From Bacteroidales bacterium (GTDB taxonomy: Bacteria > Bacteroidota > Bacteroidia > Bacteroidales > GWF2-38-335): a DNA stretch of 46,004 nt. Location of the stretch: assembly GCA_016936815.1 (NCBI GenBank), contig JAFGXD010000190.1:1-46004 (forward strand), written 5' to 3'. The notes under the pieces are model-generated. The model made no database searches, was not told the origin of the DNA, and saw only the letters and a list, made by a program, of their open reading frames with translations. This document shows, one piece after another, positions 9,625 through 45,542 of the stretch (position 1 is the first letter of the stretch; the number at the start of each line of letters is the position of its first letter). The position numbers and the translations under genes were made by a program.

Positions 9625-10407
9625 TTAATTTCCTGAAATTTTCAAATTCCCGTTTTCAATAATCAAGTCGAATTCTTTCTCACTAACTTTTTCAACCAAT
9701 TCATAATTTTCGTCTTCATCGGTTTCTTCCTGATAATTATAGTAAGTTCCTGTTCCTGAGGATTCTATTGAGCAATACACCAATCTGTGCATTCCAACAG
9801 GAGCATCGCCTGCCGCCATTTGTTCTGCAAGTAGGGTTGAATTTGAGATATTGCCATTATATACTAAAGTTCCGAATATTTGCAATCCGGCGAAAAAAGG
9901 ACAAGCTTCATATGAAGAGAAGTTTGTCATCCAAATTAATAGCATTGTATTTCTATTAATTTCCAGTTTGCCTAAAAAATAAGCATCGCCATATTTTACC
10001 ATGCCAATATCAATAGTTGCCAGATATTTTTCGTACAATTTATTGATTTTGAGAGAATCAACTAAATAAAAGCAATCTAGTCCCCATTGAGCATTTTGGT
10101 TTATTTCGTGTTCCAGAATATTTTTGGCAAGTATTTTTACATCTTTGGTTTTAAGCTCTATACCGGAGGCCGATTCGCCGGCTCCGTTTAAAAATAAGGA
10201 ATCTATTTTTAGGGGTAATTCGAAATTTACACCTTCCATTTCAAGAAAATCTATAATTTCTTCCGAATAGACTATTTCCATAGAGCTATCTGAAATAATT
10301 TTGTTGTCTTTTAAATTCTCATTAGCATCATTATTCTTTTTTTCGGAGCATGAAAAAAAGAAAAGAGAACCAAAAATTAGCATACTAAGAAAGAGATTTG
10401 TTCTCAT
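9625..10407 (-). CDS. Lipoprotein of unknown function
   Basis: A 260-aa protein with a lipoprotein signal: a hydrophobic stretch of about 15 residues ending in FFFSCSEKK, with lipidation predicted at C20, followed by an Asn/Asp/Lys-rich tether. The remainder is soluble and has no motif I recognise. It contains two or three further cysteines (in LDCFYL, EACPFF and LVYCSIE) and a strongly acidic run (EETDEDENYE) near residue 230. It begins 20 bases after the stop of the propeller/SpoIIE sensor on the same strand, so the two are probably co-transcribed. A role as an envelope accessory or target of that sensor is only a guess. The lipoprotein call is firm; the function is not known. Confidence 0.82.
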   Translation of the reverse strand: MRTNLFLSMLIFGSLFFFSCSEKKNNDANENLKDNKIISDSSMEIVYSEEIIDFLEMEGVNFELPLKIDSLFLNGAGESASGIELKTKDVKILAKNILEHEINQNAQWGLDCFYLVDSLKINKLYEKYLATIDIGMVKYGDAYFLGKLEINRNTMLLIWMTNFSSYEACPFFAGLQIFGTLVYNGNISNSTLLAEQMAAGDAPVGMHRLVYCSIESSGTGTYYNYQEETDEDENYELVEKVSEKEFDLIIENGNLKISGN

Positions 10408-29186: not shown

Positions 29187-29215
29187 AAAAAGCTGCCCAA
29201 ATAGAGCAGCTTTTT
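29187..29215 (-). terminator. Rho-independent terminator after nifJ
   Basis: AAAAAGCTGC and GCAGCTTTTT form a perfect 10-bp stem around a nine-base loop, with an eight-base T-run on the minus strand. It sits 15 bases after the nifJ stop and ends nifJ transcription before folC. Confidence 0.85.
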
Positions 29216-32200: not shown

Positions 32201-32758
32201 TTCAACTTTTTGTATTTCGTGTGAAGTTCTAAAACCATCGAAGAAATGTAGGAAAGGAATTCTTGTTTTAATTGCAGTAAGATGGGCAACACAAGCTATA
32301 TCCATTATTTCCTGAGCACTTCCGGTTGCTAACATTGCAAATCCGGTCTGACGGCAAGCCATAACATCGCTGTGGTCTCCAAAGATTGAAAGAGCCTGAG
32401 TTGCAACTGTTCTGGCGCTAACGTGAAAAACTGCAGGAAGAAGTTCTCCCGAAATTTTGTACATATTTGGAATCATAAGCAACAAACCTTGAGAGGCTGT
32501 GTATGTACTTGTTAACGCACCACCCTGAAGAGATCCGTGCAAAGCTCCGGCAGCTCCGGCTTCAGATTGCATTTCGGAAACTCTAACTGTTTCGCCAAAA
32601 ATATTTTTTCTACCCGCAGCAGACCATGAATCAACATACTCTGCCATGTCGGAAGAAGGAGTGATAGGGTAAATAGCCGCTACTTCACTAAACATATAAG
32701 CTACATGAGAAGCAGCATAGTTTCCTTCACAAGTGATAAATTTTTTTTGTTTTGTCAT
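29231..32758 (-). CDS. nifJ: Pyruvate:ferredoxin (flavodoxin) oxidoreductase, single-chain
   Basis: A 1175-aa fused enzyme that converts pyruvate and CoA to acetyl-CoA and CO2, reducing ferredoxin or flavodoxin. Domain I begins EGNYAASHVAYMFSEVAAIYPITPSS; the CoA region follows. A two-cluster ferredoxin insert has C691, C694, C697, C701 and C746, C749, C752, C756 (C-x2-C-x2-C-x3-C-P each). The thiamine diphosphate domain has FSGACAGCGETPY, GGDGWAYDIGYGG and the metal-binding DTEVYSNTGGQ. Full length for the family, with no break. The ATG at 32758 is preceded by AAGGAG on the minus strand, an unusually good Shine-Dalgarno for this window. It indicates anaerobic or fermentative capacity. A terminator follows. 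Confidence 0.97.
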   Translation of the reverse strand: MTKQKKFITCEGNYAASHVAYMFSEVAAIYPITPSSDMAEYVDSWSAAGRKNIFGETVRVSEMQSEAGAAGALHGSLQGGALTSTYTASQGLLLMIPNMYKISGELLPAVFHVSARTVATQALSIFGDHSDVMACRQTGFAMLATGSAQEIMDIACVAHLTAIKTRIPFLHFFDGFRTSHEIQKVEYFDNEDIAHLVDYDALQQFRKNALNPEHPVTKGTAQNPDVFFQAREAADKFLDPVPDTVEMYMQEITKLTGREYHPFVYYGDQNAENIIIAMGSITSTIKDVVDHLNAKGEKTGLVIVHLYRPFSPKYFFKVIPKSVKRITVLDRTKEPGANGEPMYLDVKDLFYGSENAPLIVGGRYGLSSKDTTPAMMVSVFDNMKMKEPKNRFTVGIVDDVKFSSLPLLPEISVLPKGTFEGKFYGLGADGTVGANKNSIKIIGDSTDKYCQAYFAYDSKKSGGITTSHLRFGDQQIRAPYLVSTPDFVACHVPSYLDKYDMLKGIKEGGTFLFNSIWDVEETKNRFPNHMKKTLADKNIKVYIINATAIAEEIGLGNRTNTIMQAAFFKVSNVIPYELAVKEMKKAIDKSYGRKGEHIVKMNYASVDKGGEVAELIVPKEWANLSSSPKQIDENLPDFVKNVMLPINALKGDDLPVSAFVGREDGQLPQGTTAFEKRGIAVNIPEWIGANCIQCNQCSYVCPHAAIRPFLLDEKEAAAAPANTELIQGIGGTKAYKFRMQISPLDCTGCGNCVDVCPSKTKALEMKPLGTQEAEINRWEHMHHKVGYKDAVLDKYSTVKNSQFAQPLFEFSGACAGCGETPYIKAITQLYGQRMIVANATGCSSIYGGTFPASPYCKNLKTGYGPAWANSLFEDNAEYGYGIGLGVEQMRRRIEDRMKKAMETEISGELKSLFKEWIDNKNNADLTMELAAKLVPIMKKESNPLVKEILSLEQYLVKKSIWIFGGDGWAYDIGYGGLDHVIASGDDVNILVLDTEVYSNTGGQASKSTPVGAVAKFAASGMKTRKKDLGAMAMTYGYVYIAQVAMGSSQAQYFKAIKEAEAYPGPSLIIAYAPCIAHGLKEGMGATQLETKKAVESGYWHLYRYNPLLETEGKNPFTLDSKEPDWDKFQNFLKSEVRYSSLMKSFPGEADKLFKIAEEDAKWRYRNYVRLSQMEY

Positions 32759-32761
32759 TTT

Positions 32762-32767
32762 CTCCTT
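32762..32767 (-). promoter_or_regulatory. nifJ: Shine-Dalgarno of nifJ
   Basis: AAGGAG lies three bases before the ATG on the minus strand. Most other genes here have no such site, so this supports high expression or an unusual control of nifJ translation. Confidence 0.6.
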
Positions 32768-32992
32768 GTATTTAGTTTTGTTTTATTACAAAATAATATA
32801 AAATTTAGGCTTGCTAATTTAGAATAAATAGTTTAGAATTCTTATGATTTATAACTTGTTTTAAGTAAGAATTATTTAGACTATTTTAAAATAGAGGGGT
32901 GGTTTGAGTTAATTATTGTTTTTGATTCTTTGTTTAAGTCCCTGATTAATCCTTTGATGTTTAATTAAAGTTTTTATAGAATTTTATTTTTT

Positions 32993-33017
32993 TAGTACCA
33001 TGTATTGCATAGTACTA
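32993..33017 (+). promoter_or_regulatory. predicted PadR operator over the padR promoter
   Basis: Two 10-bp arms, TAGTACCATG and CATAGTACTA, match at nine of ten positions around a five-base centre (TATTG). The centre contains the likely -33 element (ATTG, 33004-33007), and an exact -7 box TATATTTG lies at 33028-33035. A PadR dimer bound here would block the polymerase, so autorepression is likely. PadR-type sites are commonly dyads of this size. Confidence 0.7.
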
Positions 33018-33027
33018 AATTTTCATT

Positions 33028-33035
33028 TATATTTG
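33028..33035 (+). promoter_or_regulatory. -7 box of the padR-pspC promoter
   Basis: TATATTTG is an exact TANNTTTG match. A -33-like ATTG lies 20 bases upstream, inside the operator dyad. The ATG of padR is 20 bases downstream, giving a short leader. Confidence 0.65.
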
Positions 33036-33055
33036 CAGTGTAAAACTTTTCTAAA

Positions 33056-33385
33056 ATGAATATAGAAAACATAAGAGCACAAATGCGCAAAGGGGTTTTG
33101 GAATACTGCATTCTTTCAGTACTCTCAAACAAAGCTTGTTATGTTTCCGATATTATCAGTAATCTAAAAGAATCGGAAATGCTGGTGGTTGAAGGAACAC
33201 TTTACCCATTGCTTACAAGACTGAAAAACAACGGACTTTTATCGTACCGCTGGGAAGAATCAACTCAGGGTCCTCCTCGAAAATACTACAGTCTAACAGA
33301 AAAGGGAATTGAATTTCTTGCTCAGATGGATAATTCATGGAACGAACTTGTTGAAACAGTAAATCAAATTAGAAAAAATTCTTAA
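33056..33385 (+). CDS. PadR-family transcriptional regulator
   Basis: A 109-aa winged-helix regulator. The N-terminal MRKGVLEYCILSVLSNKACY and the wing segment VVEGTLYPLLTRLKNNGLLSYRWEESTQGPPRKYYSLTEKG are diagnostic of PadR. It is the short form, without a long C-terminal effector domain. It lies 12 bases before a PspC-domain membrane protein on the same strand, a pairing often seen in Bacteroidota. A near-perfect dyad covers the promoter, so it probably represses its own operon in response to an unknown envelope-related signal. Confidence 0.93.
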   Translation: MNIENIRAQMRKGVLEYCILSVLSNKACYVSDIISNLKESEMLVVEGTLYPLLTRLKNNGLLSYRWEESTQGPPRKYYSLTEKGIEFLAQMDNSWNELVETVNQIRKNS

Positions 33386-33397
33386 TTCAAAATAGAG

Positions 33398-34972
33398 ATG
33401 AAAAAGACATTCACAATTAACATTAGCGGACAAATCTTTCATATTGATGAAGATGCTTATGAAAGACTTGGAAAATACCTGAATTCAATTAATTCCAGAT
33501 TTTCGAACCGCGAGGAAGGTGCAGAAATAATTAGCGATGTGGAAGCTCGTATTGCTGAGCTTTTTAGAGAAAGGACTTCCGATTCTAATCAGGTTATTAC
33601 CATGAAAGATGTTGGAAGTGTAATTGAAATTATGGGCGAACCTGAGGTATTCAGCGATGAAGAACCTGTGGAAAATAATGAAGAAAAGTATCAAAACGAT
33701 GAAAAAACGGTGAAAAGAGTCTACCGCGACCCCGATGATCAGATTTTTGGAGGTGTTTGTGGTGGATTAGGAGCCTATTTCGGAATAGATCCTGTTATTG
33801 TTAGAATAATTTTTGTTGTTCTTGCCATTGGTTTTATAGGTTTTTGGATTTATCTTATTCTTTGGGCCATTACTCCAAAAGCAAATTCAGCAAGAGAAAA
33901 ACTTCACATGAGAGGAGAGAAAATTAATGTTTCAAATATTGAAAAAACAATTAAGGAAGAATTTGCAAACGTAAAAAGCAACCTTAAAGACATTAAGAAA
34001 AAAAAACCTTATAAGGATGCAAGAAATTTTTTTGATGATAGCTTTGAAAATGTGGGGCATGGTGCAAGGTCGTTTTTTCGTGCAGCACTATATATTTTTG
34101 GTGTTGTTCTTGTTGTAACAGGTTTATTTTTTATTATTTCTTTCTTTTCAACATATTACTCAGAAAATGGGATTTTTTCAATGGGATTTTGGTCATCCGA
34201 CTCCTATTCTTTAGCTTCTGTTCTAGAATCGGTTTTTATGAGCTCTAATGTAACCATGCTCTTTATTGGTATTTTCTTTCTTATAGGAATTCCTGTTTTA
34301 TCAATGATTTTTGGTGGAATAAAGCTAATTTTTAACATTAGGGGAAAGAACAGATTAGTTGGTAGTATTTTCCTTATATTCTGGATTTTAGGTTTTATTA
34401 TCCTAGCGGTTGTTGGTATTTCCGAAGGAAAAAATTTCCGCTTTAAAGGTAAGGAAATTCAGAACTATGCAATTTCTACCAACGGCTCCGACACCCTTGT
34501 TGTAAGAATGATGCCCGATAAACTTAATGATGAATACTTTGCTGTTTCGGAACATTCATTTAATATTTTTGAAGAAAATGGAGAAAGAACCGTTTTTGGA
34601 AGACCAAAAGTTTCTGTAAGTATTTCCGATACAAAAGAATACGAAATAGTTATTAAAAAGCGTTCAAGAGGCAAAAACCGCAAAAATGCAAACGAAAATT
34701 CAAGTGAAATTATTTATCAGTGGAATCTTGAAGGTAATCAGCTTATACTCGACCAGTACTTTTTTCTTTTAAAAGACGAAAAATGGCGCAAACAAGAAGT
34801 TGAAATTCTTTTGAAAGTTCCGGTTGGCAAAGCCATTTACATTGACCCAAAAATGAACGATATTATTAACGATGTAGTTAACAAACCGGGTGTTCCAGTT
34901 GAGGAAATTGCAGGCAAAACCTGGGTTATGCGGGAAGATGGGTTAGGTTTAATGCTCGATACAGTAAGGTAG
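33398..34972 (+). CDS. PspC-domain membrane protein
   Basis: A 524-aa protein. The soluble N-terminus (about 1-100, with MKKTFTINISGQIFHIDEDAYERL and ISDVEARIAELF) is common in Bacteroidota PspC proteins. A PspC domain follows at about 105-165 (DQIFGGVCGGLGAYFGIDPVIVRIIF and a helix ending in LILWAITPK). Three more membrane helices lie near 225-256, 280-305 and 318-340, and the last 170 residues form a beta-rich domain. PspC in enteric bacteria senses envelope stress and controls PspA/PspF, but no psp partner is visible here. It is co-transcribed with padR and ends within a hairpin shared with the converging dsbD gene. Confidence 0.88.
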   Translation: MKKTFTINISGQIFHIDEDAYERLGKYLNSINSRFSNREEGAEIISDVEARIAELFRERTSDSNQVITMKDVGSVIEIMGEPEVFSDEEPVENNEEKYQNDEKTVKRVYRDPDDQIFGGVCGGLGAYFGIDPVIVRIIFVVLAIGFIGFWIYLILWAITPKANSAREKLHMRGEKINVSNIEKTIKEEFANVKSNLKDIKKKKPYKDARNFFDDSFENVGHGARSFFRAALYIFGVVLVVTGLFFIISFFSTYYSENGIFSMGFWSSDSYSLASVLESVFMSSNVTMLFIGIFFLIGIPVLSMIFGGIKLIFNIRGKNRLVGSIFLIFWILGFIILAVVGISEGKNFRFKGKEIQNYAISTNGSDTLVVRMMPDKLNDEYFAVSEHSFNIFEENGERTVFGRPKVSVSISDTKEYEIVIKKRSRGKNRKNANENSSEIIYQWNLEGNQLILDQYFFLLKDEKWRKQEVEILLKVPVGKAIYIDPKMNDIINDVVNKPGVPVEEIAGKTWVMREDGLGLMLDTVR

Positions 34973-44954: not shown

Positions 44955-45542
44955 GTGTCAAATAAAGATGATGTAAGAGAAAACATTGTTGAACTTGCCC
45001 GTGTAATTTTTTCGAAATTCGGTTACAAGAAAACAACAATGGACGATATTGCTAATGCAGCAGGAAAAGGAAAAAGCTCGCTTTACTACTATTTTAAAAG
45101 TAAGGAAGAAGTATTTGAAGCCGTTGTAGAAAACGAAGCCTCAATTCTTAGCGCAGAGTTGAACAAAGTTTTAGACAAAGATATTAACCCTAAAGAAAAA
45201 CTTCGGGAGTACATTTTAGTAAGGTTGAAAGTAATAGAAACACTTTCAAACATTATGGAAGTTATTAAAAACAAGTACCTTACCGAAATTGAATGTGTTT
45301 ACGGCATACGAAAAAAATACGACCAAGATGAATTGCGTATGTTAAGACTAATTCTTGAAGAAGGAGTAGAAAAAGGAGTTTTTGAAATTGAAAATGAAGA
45401 ACTTGCGGCCGAGGGAATTTTAACATTTATGAAAGGATTGCAAATCCCTTTATTTATTGATAATTATTTGTCGAAAACTGAACCAAGATTAGATAATATT
45501 CTTTCTATGTTGTTTTTCGGGATTCTTAGTAAGAAAGGTTGA
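44955..45542 (+). CDS. TetR/AcrR-family transcriptional regulator, GTG start
   Basis: A 195-aa regulator. The N-terminal helix-turn-helix at about 8-55 reads VIFSKFGYKKTTMDDIANAA then GKSSLYYYFKSKEEVFEAVV, which is a strong TetR match. The C-terminal ligand-binding region is helical and has no specific signature. The start is GTG at 44955, 24 bases after the M16 stop. The two may form an operon. The ligand and targets are unknown. Confidence 0.92.
   Translation: MSNKDDVRENIVELARVIFSKFGYKKTTMDDIANAAGKGKSSLYYYFKSKEEVFEAVVENEASILSAELNKVLDKDINPKEKLREYILVRLKVIETLSNIMEVIKNKYLTEIECVYGIRKKYDQDELRMLRLILEEGVEKGVFEIENEELAAEGILTFMKGLQIPLFIDNYLSKTEPRLDNILSMLFFGILSKKG

Follow-up and report, generated by a model that had tools for sequence, protein, structure and literature searches.

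The canonical operator box of PadR-type regulators, as described for LmrR, LadR, and PadR, is ATGT-N8-ACAT. The Clostridioides difficile regulator cdPadR1, which belongs to the PadR-s2 type, binds TACT(N11-12)AGTA in the electrophoretic mobility shift assay, and its promoter carries two boxes, one of which overlaps the predicted promoter elements (PMC5050560). In Listeria, mutation of lltR raised the expression of the lltR-DUF1700-DUF4097 operon 107–151-fold and that of liaIH 2.6–3.8-fold (PMC6624303), and a 28-mer from the promoter of LftR, another PadR protein, is palindromic in part and is bound by LftR at 6.2 nM (PMC6457526). The present analysis concerns a 25-bp dyad located upstream of padR-pspC in contig JAFGXD010000190.1 of a Bacteroidales bacterium (assembly GCA_016936815.1), of which positions 1 to 46,004 were analyzed and are referred to as the window. 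The dyad is very probably the landing site at which PadR would shut off padR and the adjoining membrane-stress gene, since it was found to be kept before nearly every related operon examined. Autorepression of padR-pspC, with PadR covering the −33 region by way of the dyad, is strongly favored on the evidence of position and conservation given below.

A dyad written over the padR promoter

The dyad reads TAGTACCATGTATTGCATAGTACTA, i.e., TAGTAC-C-ATG-TATTG-CAT-A-GTACTA, in exact agreement with the window sequence. An earlier inspection of the letters (the sequence-only reading) had described nine matched positions among the ten of its arms, a putative −33 element in its center, and an exact TANNTTTG shortly after it, and all three were confirmed when the sequence was checked (Table 1). 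The sole mismatch among the named arm positions is 7/19 (C/A). Toward the center, 11/15 (T/G) is unpaired and 12/14 is paired, and within 12 bases of the center only 7/19 and 11/15 fail to pair; further outer pairs, TT...AA, flank the dyad (32991–32992 with 33018–33019). The center, position 33005, falls inside the putative −33 TTG. Ten bases separate the dyad from TATATTTG, and padR (ATG at 33056) starts 38 bp after the dyad. A promoter of the Bacteroidota primary sigma factor, with TAnnTTTG at −7 (consensus taken from PMC7366714) and a TTG-type element near −33, is predicted here, with 20 bp between the two elements.

Table 1. Features of the padR-pspC locus in the window.
Feature	Position	Strand	Evidence
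25-bp dyad, proposed PadR operator	32993..33017	+	sequence; kept ahead of padR at 175 of 189 distinct loci
TTG, putative −33 promoter element	33005..33007	+	sequence; on padR strand in 127 of 175 sites at same place
TATATTTG, exact TANNTTTG, −7 element of Bacteroidota primary sigma factor	33028..33035	+	sequence; TANNTTTG 9–11 bp after dyad in 163 of 175 loci
padR, 109 aa, PadR-s2 type winged-helix regulator	33056..33385	+	Pfam PadR, expect value (E) 1.4e-19; AlphaFold2 predicted local distance difference test 91.9; best PDB match 5h20, 65% identity
Codons of PadR helix 46–58, recognition helix; operator loss associated with changes at residues 54 and 58	33191..33229	+	AlphaFold2 helix; association
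PspC protein (PspC, LiaI-LiaF-TM_PspC, Toast-rack_PspC-Cterm)	33398..34972	+	Pfam; pspC match 200–900 bp after padR start in 185 of 189 loci
HAAS-like domain, residues 26–85, N-terminus of PspC protein	33473..33652	+	PF22564, E 1.5e-4, 22.5 bits (cut-off 27)

The specific dyad pattern, searched with up to three mismatches, matched once in the window and in none of 100 shuffles. Symmetry by itself was common: four odd centers in the window (10348, 29201, 33005, and 45888) showed at least nine of ten pairs at offsets 3–12, and one of them showed ten. Rarity of the dyad was therefore rejected as stand-alone evidence, and the dyad rises above chance because it is conserved, not because it is symmetric. 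This commonness, together with the HAAS-like domain and the match to the published cdPadR1 site, had been overlooked in the sequence-only reading. The repeats at 10348, 29201, and 45888 are near-perfect odd-centered inverted repeats of their own; the one at 29201, which immediately follows the pyruvate:ferredoxin oxidoreductase gene, is a possible terminator.

Conservation upstream of padR orthologs

Orthologs of PadR were gathered from three sets: 99 genomes of relatives (57 with a strong match), named genomes, from which the best 80 of 563 loci were taken, and 247 phylum genomes (58 with a strong match, down to 51% identity). The padR-pspC switch was thus present, by strong matches, in 57 of the 99 sampled relatives and in 58 of the 247 sampled phylum genomes, the latter all in the window's own class. 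Removal of duplicate loci reduced 140 loci to 132 for a first look and left 189, with PadR additionally required at E < 1e-25, for a matrix scan. In the first look, which covered up to 400 bp upstream, 58 of the 132 distinct loci differed from the consensus at no more than 7 of 25 positions and the other 74 at nine or more. In 2,640 stretches produced by Markov resampling, the count fell to seven mismatches twice and never to six or fewer. A scoring matrix was built from the 58 sites, all from Bacteroidia, and a site was called at a score of at least 16 within 2.5 kb upstream of padR. Such a site was present at 175 of the 189 distinct loci, over a range of 50–100% PadR identity, and at 117 of the 131 loci held out from training, with no place scoring 14 or more in 685,731 bases of background downstream of padR starts. 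A lack of conservation in related genomes, together with a failure of PadR to bind, had been named by the sequence-only reading as what would refute its operator, and the dyad proved to be strongly conserved. Of the 57 relatives with a strong ortholog, 49 likewise showed a padR-linked match when the 99 genomes were searched with the pattern (up to three mismatches).

Fourteen loci gave no call. Two of them (L175 and L086) had less than 200 bp of upstream DNA, leaving 187 judgeable loci; a third (L132) has its site 5.8 kb upstream; three (L174, L183, and L188) carry a weaker dyad 11 bp before TANNTTTG; and eight (L123, L126, L171, L176, L227, L233, L234, and L236) have no dyad or a degenerate one upstream of padR. 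Tandem or paired dyads were observed at L114 (at −1948 and −1398 from padR), L225 (−108 and −69), and L072 and L091 (a second, weaker site 50 bp past the first), a layout reminiscent of the cdPadR1 promoter of C. difficile with its two boxes. In one relative, the dyad and the padR ortholog are separated by another PadR-like stretch, which is divergent (G062, contig 14, 44366–44599).

As the dyad is a near-perfect inverted repeat, it might alternatively be an RNA hairpin, a terminator, or a repeat element. This is very improbable: the dyad stands upstream of the −7 element and so outside the transcript of this promoter, no Rfam family was found at 32700–33500 and no terminator-like site at 32750–33100, the pattern (up to three mismatches) occurs as a single copy in the 3.58-Mb window genome (95.5% complete), and the letters themselves are conserved, beyond mere pairing.

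Geometry of the promoter and position at the operon head

The overlap of dyad and promoter was also found to be conserved in position among the orthologous loci. The distance from the dyad to TANNTTTG was 11 bp at 136 of the 175 loci, 10 bp at 21, 9 bp at six, and another value at three, with no such element at nine. The dyad lay within 150 bp of padR at 62 loci and farther upstream at 113. At 111 of these 113 loci, no stretch longer than 250 bp between the dyad and padR was free of open reading frames (counted from 50 codons upward, such a frame being no proof of a gene). Since the gap to padR is filled in this way, as at the head of an operon, the site appears to track the promoter of the operon and not the start of padR. 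The uncalled locus L132 (genome G041; L153) is an example, where the dyad about 5.8 kb before padR heads an operon whose last genes are padR-pspC and which encodes a MacB-type ABC exporter (ABC ATPase, two MacB/FtsX permeases, an HlyD-type adaptor, and an outer membrane efflux protein).

In the 58 training sites, all the consensus positions were palindromic except 11/15, which was paired in only 8 of 58 sites and contains the G of TTG. The asymmetry can be read as a −33 element written into the operator; it is equally possible that PadR itself tolerates or prefers an asymmetric center.

The PadR protein and its link to the site

Structural modeling of the window PadR predicted helices at 3–25, 30–39, and 46–58, strands at 62–67 and 75–80, and a C-terminal helix at 82–108. 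The protein has the features of PadR-s2 regulators, i.e., about 110 residues, a winged helix, and a single helix at the C-terminus that holds a conserved Trp (W95 here, the same in all 30 sequences compared). Among the PadR-s2 motifs EGT(L/I)YPxLxRLE, G(P/R)RKYYx(L/I)TxxG, and YGYE(I/L) (PMC3506622), the first two correspond to EGTLYPLLTRLKN and GPPRKYYSLTEKG in the window PadR, with a different final residue in the first. The third is replaced by CYVSDI in the window and by YASDI in most of the 30 aligned orthologs, with one Tyr kept. Both by profile and by fold, the best match to the window PadR was PDB 5h20, a PadR of Bacteroides fragilis, ahead of LmrR, BC4206, and the Listeria proteins. 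The 5h20 protein is presumably BF2549 of Lee, Kim and Hong (2017).

The site was absent from all 22 stretches around paralogous PadR genes of the same phylum, with a best score of −0.5. These stretches comprised 14 of the 15 weak matches among the relatives and eight of the many weak matches in the phylum, and 13 of them were 0.9–1.5 kb long with about 0.5–0.9 kb upstream. No pspC was seen in them, which says little where the downstream DNA was short. Among the conserved positions of PadR, a missing operator was best associated with substitutions at residues 54 (p 1.3e-6) and 58 (p 4.8e-5), both of which fall in the predicted recognition helix 46–58. When L132 was moved to the site-bearing loci, the association at residue 54 stood at a Fisher p of 2.9e-5 (Thr at 172 loci with the site and 6 without, another residue at 4 with and 5 without), and these p-values overstate the case because the loci are related, the losses with a changed residue 54 falling in three lineages (L123; L126; and L233, L234, and L236, which form one family). 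No convincing covariation was found between operator variants at 2/24, 3/23, and 8/18 and PadR residues.

A HAAS-like domain in the PspC protein

The N-terminus of the PspC protein resembles the HAAS family. Of 50 homologous N-termini (alignment A2, a varied choice from the window protein and 76 found homologs), 46 matched HAAS at E ≤ 0.01. The HAAS motif GxP (PMC11237479) is present, G80 being invariant and P82 occurring in at least 90% of the 50 sequences. A search of the whole own genome with the HAAS family gave no match at E ≤ 0.001, though the single protein gives 1.5e-4, and a comparison of PDB sequences with the HAAS profile gave four chance-like matches, E 0.75 or worse. The PspC protein probably bears a HAAS domain, and padR-pspC therefore looks like a HAAS-PadR system.

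The following course of regulation is proposed. A PadR dimer would occupy both GTAC-containing half-sites of the dyad and cover the −33 region of the padR promoter, so that RNA polymerase would be blocked and padR-pspC repressed. The protein with PspC, LiaI-LiaF-TM, and toastrack domains, encoded on the same transcript, would sense membrane stress, and its N-terminal HAAS-like domain would probably act on PadR and loosen it from the operator. By analogy with HAAS-PadR systems, release of PadR through this domain has about an even chance of being correct. The site offers a way to examine how a HAAS domain might hand over a membrane signal to a PadR repressor.

Autorepression and its alternatives

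Several results weigh against the proposed autorepression. At 11 of the 187 judgeable loci no site reached the threshold, and six of these have residues 54 and 58 unchanged; conversely, the site persists at four of the nine loci where residue 54 is changed. Weaker associations with loss were present at residues 62, 19, 38, 33, and 52 (p 8e-4 to 0.02), mostly outside the recognition helix. TTG is absent from 48 of the 175 sites. Covariation between the arms exceeded that of shuffles for only one of 12 pairs, 3/23 (p 0.0125), which is too weak to serve as proof of a dimer site. For cdPadR1, an altered spacer length still allowed binding (PMC5050560), so that protein does not depend on a strict N11. 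The HAAS match of the window protein falls below the Pfam cut-off (Table 1), and the model of this domain had no PDB match at E ≤ 0.001.

The link between PadR and the dyad is drawn from the letters, and another regulator might read the dyad and control the operon, with PadR acting elsewhere. The loci just mentioned, at which the site and residue 54 or 58 do not go together, would be consistent with this. It is nevertheless improbable, as the site tracks padR and the promoter of its operon, the window operon holds no other regulator gene, loss of the site accompanies changes in the PadR recognition helix, and a PadR-s2 homolog binds the same TACT-N11-AGTA frame. PadR might also act at the dyad as an activator, or modulate the promoter both ways, the direction of control being read from position and the dyad lying upstream of the −7 element, which it leaves free. 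This appears less probable still: the dyad overlaps the −33 contact, presumably the usual place of a repressor, and the studied relatives LltR and LmrR repress themselves. Autorepression by PadR hence remains preferred, and the sequence-only reading of a PadR operator is supported, with its conservation borne out and binding by PadR argued from sequence.

Other targets and other phyla

The sequence-only reading had considered the site specific enough to search for further targets, and such a search was made. In the window genome, a loose pattern matched 69 places against 68 for a reversed control, with no outstanding target among them. Among the relatives, matches with up to three mismatches included 22 places unlinked to padR, against 14 matches of the reversed control. 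Eight of the 22 were fetched and two looked convincing (L149 of G060, 2031–2055, and L150 of G074, 2027–2051). Each is a further copy of the dyad, followed at a distance of 8 bp by a TANNTTTG that faces an ABC transporter ATPase gene, and is a possible second PadR target. Together with the exporter operon of G041 and the precedents of LmrR and LftR, they suggest that ABC exporters are occasional second targets of PadR. Viral contigs yielded only two relatives.

A set of 27 loci from other phyla was assembled, 24 from plasmid records and three from phage-labeled records resembling host DNA; L255, a near-duplicate of L254, and L246 and L257, which are Bacteroidota, were left out. The records named as Listeria or Enterococcus phages (L253–L256) carry padR followed by a HAAS or DUF1048 gene (L253, L254, and L256 tested) and look like host chromosome, not phage. 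L246 and L257, records of Parabacteroides and Bacteroides plasmids, carry padR-pspC beside the housekeeping genes prfB, greA, and ybaK and look like mislabeled pieces of chromosome.

For 10 of the first 13 loci of the set, the plain matrix put the best place of the stretch no more than 160 bp upstream of padR. The matrix was then made symmetric, and 14 more loci were chosen for variety before scanning. With the symmetric Bacteroidia matrix, 21 of the 27 loci (11 of the first 13, 10 of the 14 added) had the best place of their whole 3.9–6.3-kb stretch between −200 and +10 of padR, as compared with a mean of 1.8 and a maximum of 8 for column-permuted symmetric matrices (300 trials). Scores were low for L259 and L261 among the 21, and the best place lay outside this range in L247, L249, L268, L276, L280, and L281. 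A neighboring gene for HAAS, DUF1700, DUF1048, or DUF1129 (annotated or at E ≤ 0.01) was present at 22 of the 27 loci, 18 of them among the 21. The other five gave mixed results, L250 and L278 having the site, L276 and L281 lacking it, and L275 having it next to a gene that was left unexamined, and because of this HAAS linkage is put forward as the dividing line for the operator code only as a hypothesis.

It is moderately likely that HAAS-linked PadRs across phyla share one operator code, an odd-centered 25-bp dyad of approximately TAGTAC-TATGTA-N-TACATA-GTACTA, unlike ATGT-N8-ACAT, which in Bacteroidota is interlocked with the promoter, the sole asymmetric consensus position being the G of the −33 TTG. 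If so, a matrix built from Bacteroidia only would predict targets, ABC exporters included, for a large class of envelope-stress switches that are mostly unstudied. For the PadR-PspC switch itself, the analysis provides a concrete, testable candidate binding site and a matrix for predicting targets.

Comparison with known PadR systems

No description of the Bacteroidota operator, of the depth of its conservation, or of its fusion with the promoter was found in the searches made of open papers, although the 2017 study of BF2549 may report this operator; a literature search with the letters of the dyad returned no paper on a PadR regulator among the matches listed. The excerpt of PMC6624303 that was consulted contains no operator sequence for LltR, and that of PMC11237479, on a HAAS-PadR system linked to the phage shock protein (PSP) response, describes proteins and gene neighborhoods with no mention of an operator.

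Like the canonical PadR systems, the window has at a promoter a dyad that a PadR dimer would recognize. The box ATGT-N8-ACAT itself is absent near padR, its sole match in the window (44971–44986) being far off and expected by chance, and ATGT-N8..10-ACAT was found in one of the 175 sites. The agreement with cdPadR1 is closer, as the window carries TACC-N11-AGTA in the same frame, one mismatch from TACT-N11-AGTA, which occurs exactly in 71 of the 175 sites and with at most one mismatch in 155. The two systems differ in that the conserved dyad of the window type spans 25 bp, with TA/TA on the outside and TG...CA on the inside; in that there is one outstanding copy in the genome here, whereas PMC5050560 lists 200 motif matches; and in that the promoter is of the Bacteroidota −33/−7 type, with no second box seen in the window. 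LltR (Lmo0599) resembles the window system as a PadR-like regulator whose neighbors are a membrane protein with DUF1700 (HAAS) and a protein with DUF4097 (toastrack), and its autorepression, with chiefly its own operon as target, is like that proposed here. It differs in that HAAS and toastrack are encoded by separate genes, whereas here a HAAS-like domain and toastrack share a single protein with PspC and LiaI-LiaF-TM. Operators and circuits of this kind are thus already known from cdPadR1, LltR, and LftR. The padR-pspC dyad can be placed among the known type of autorepressor operators, an assignment well supported by conservation, and it is marked by the unusual depth to which it is kept and by its fusion with the −33 element.
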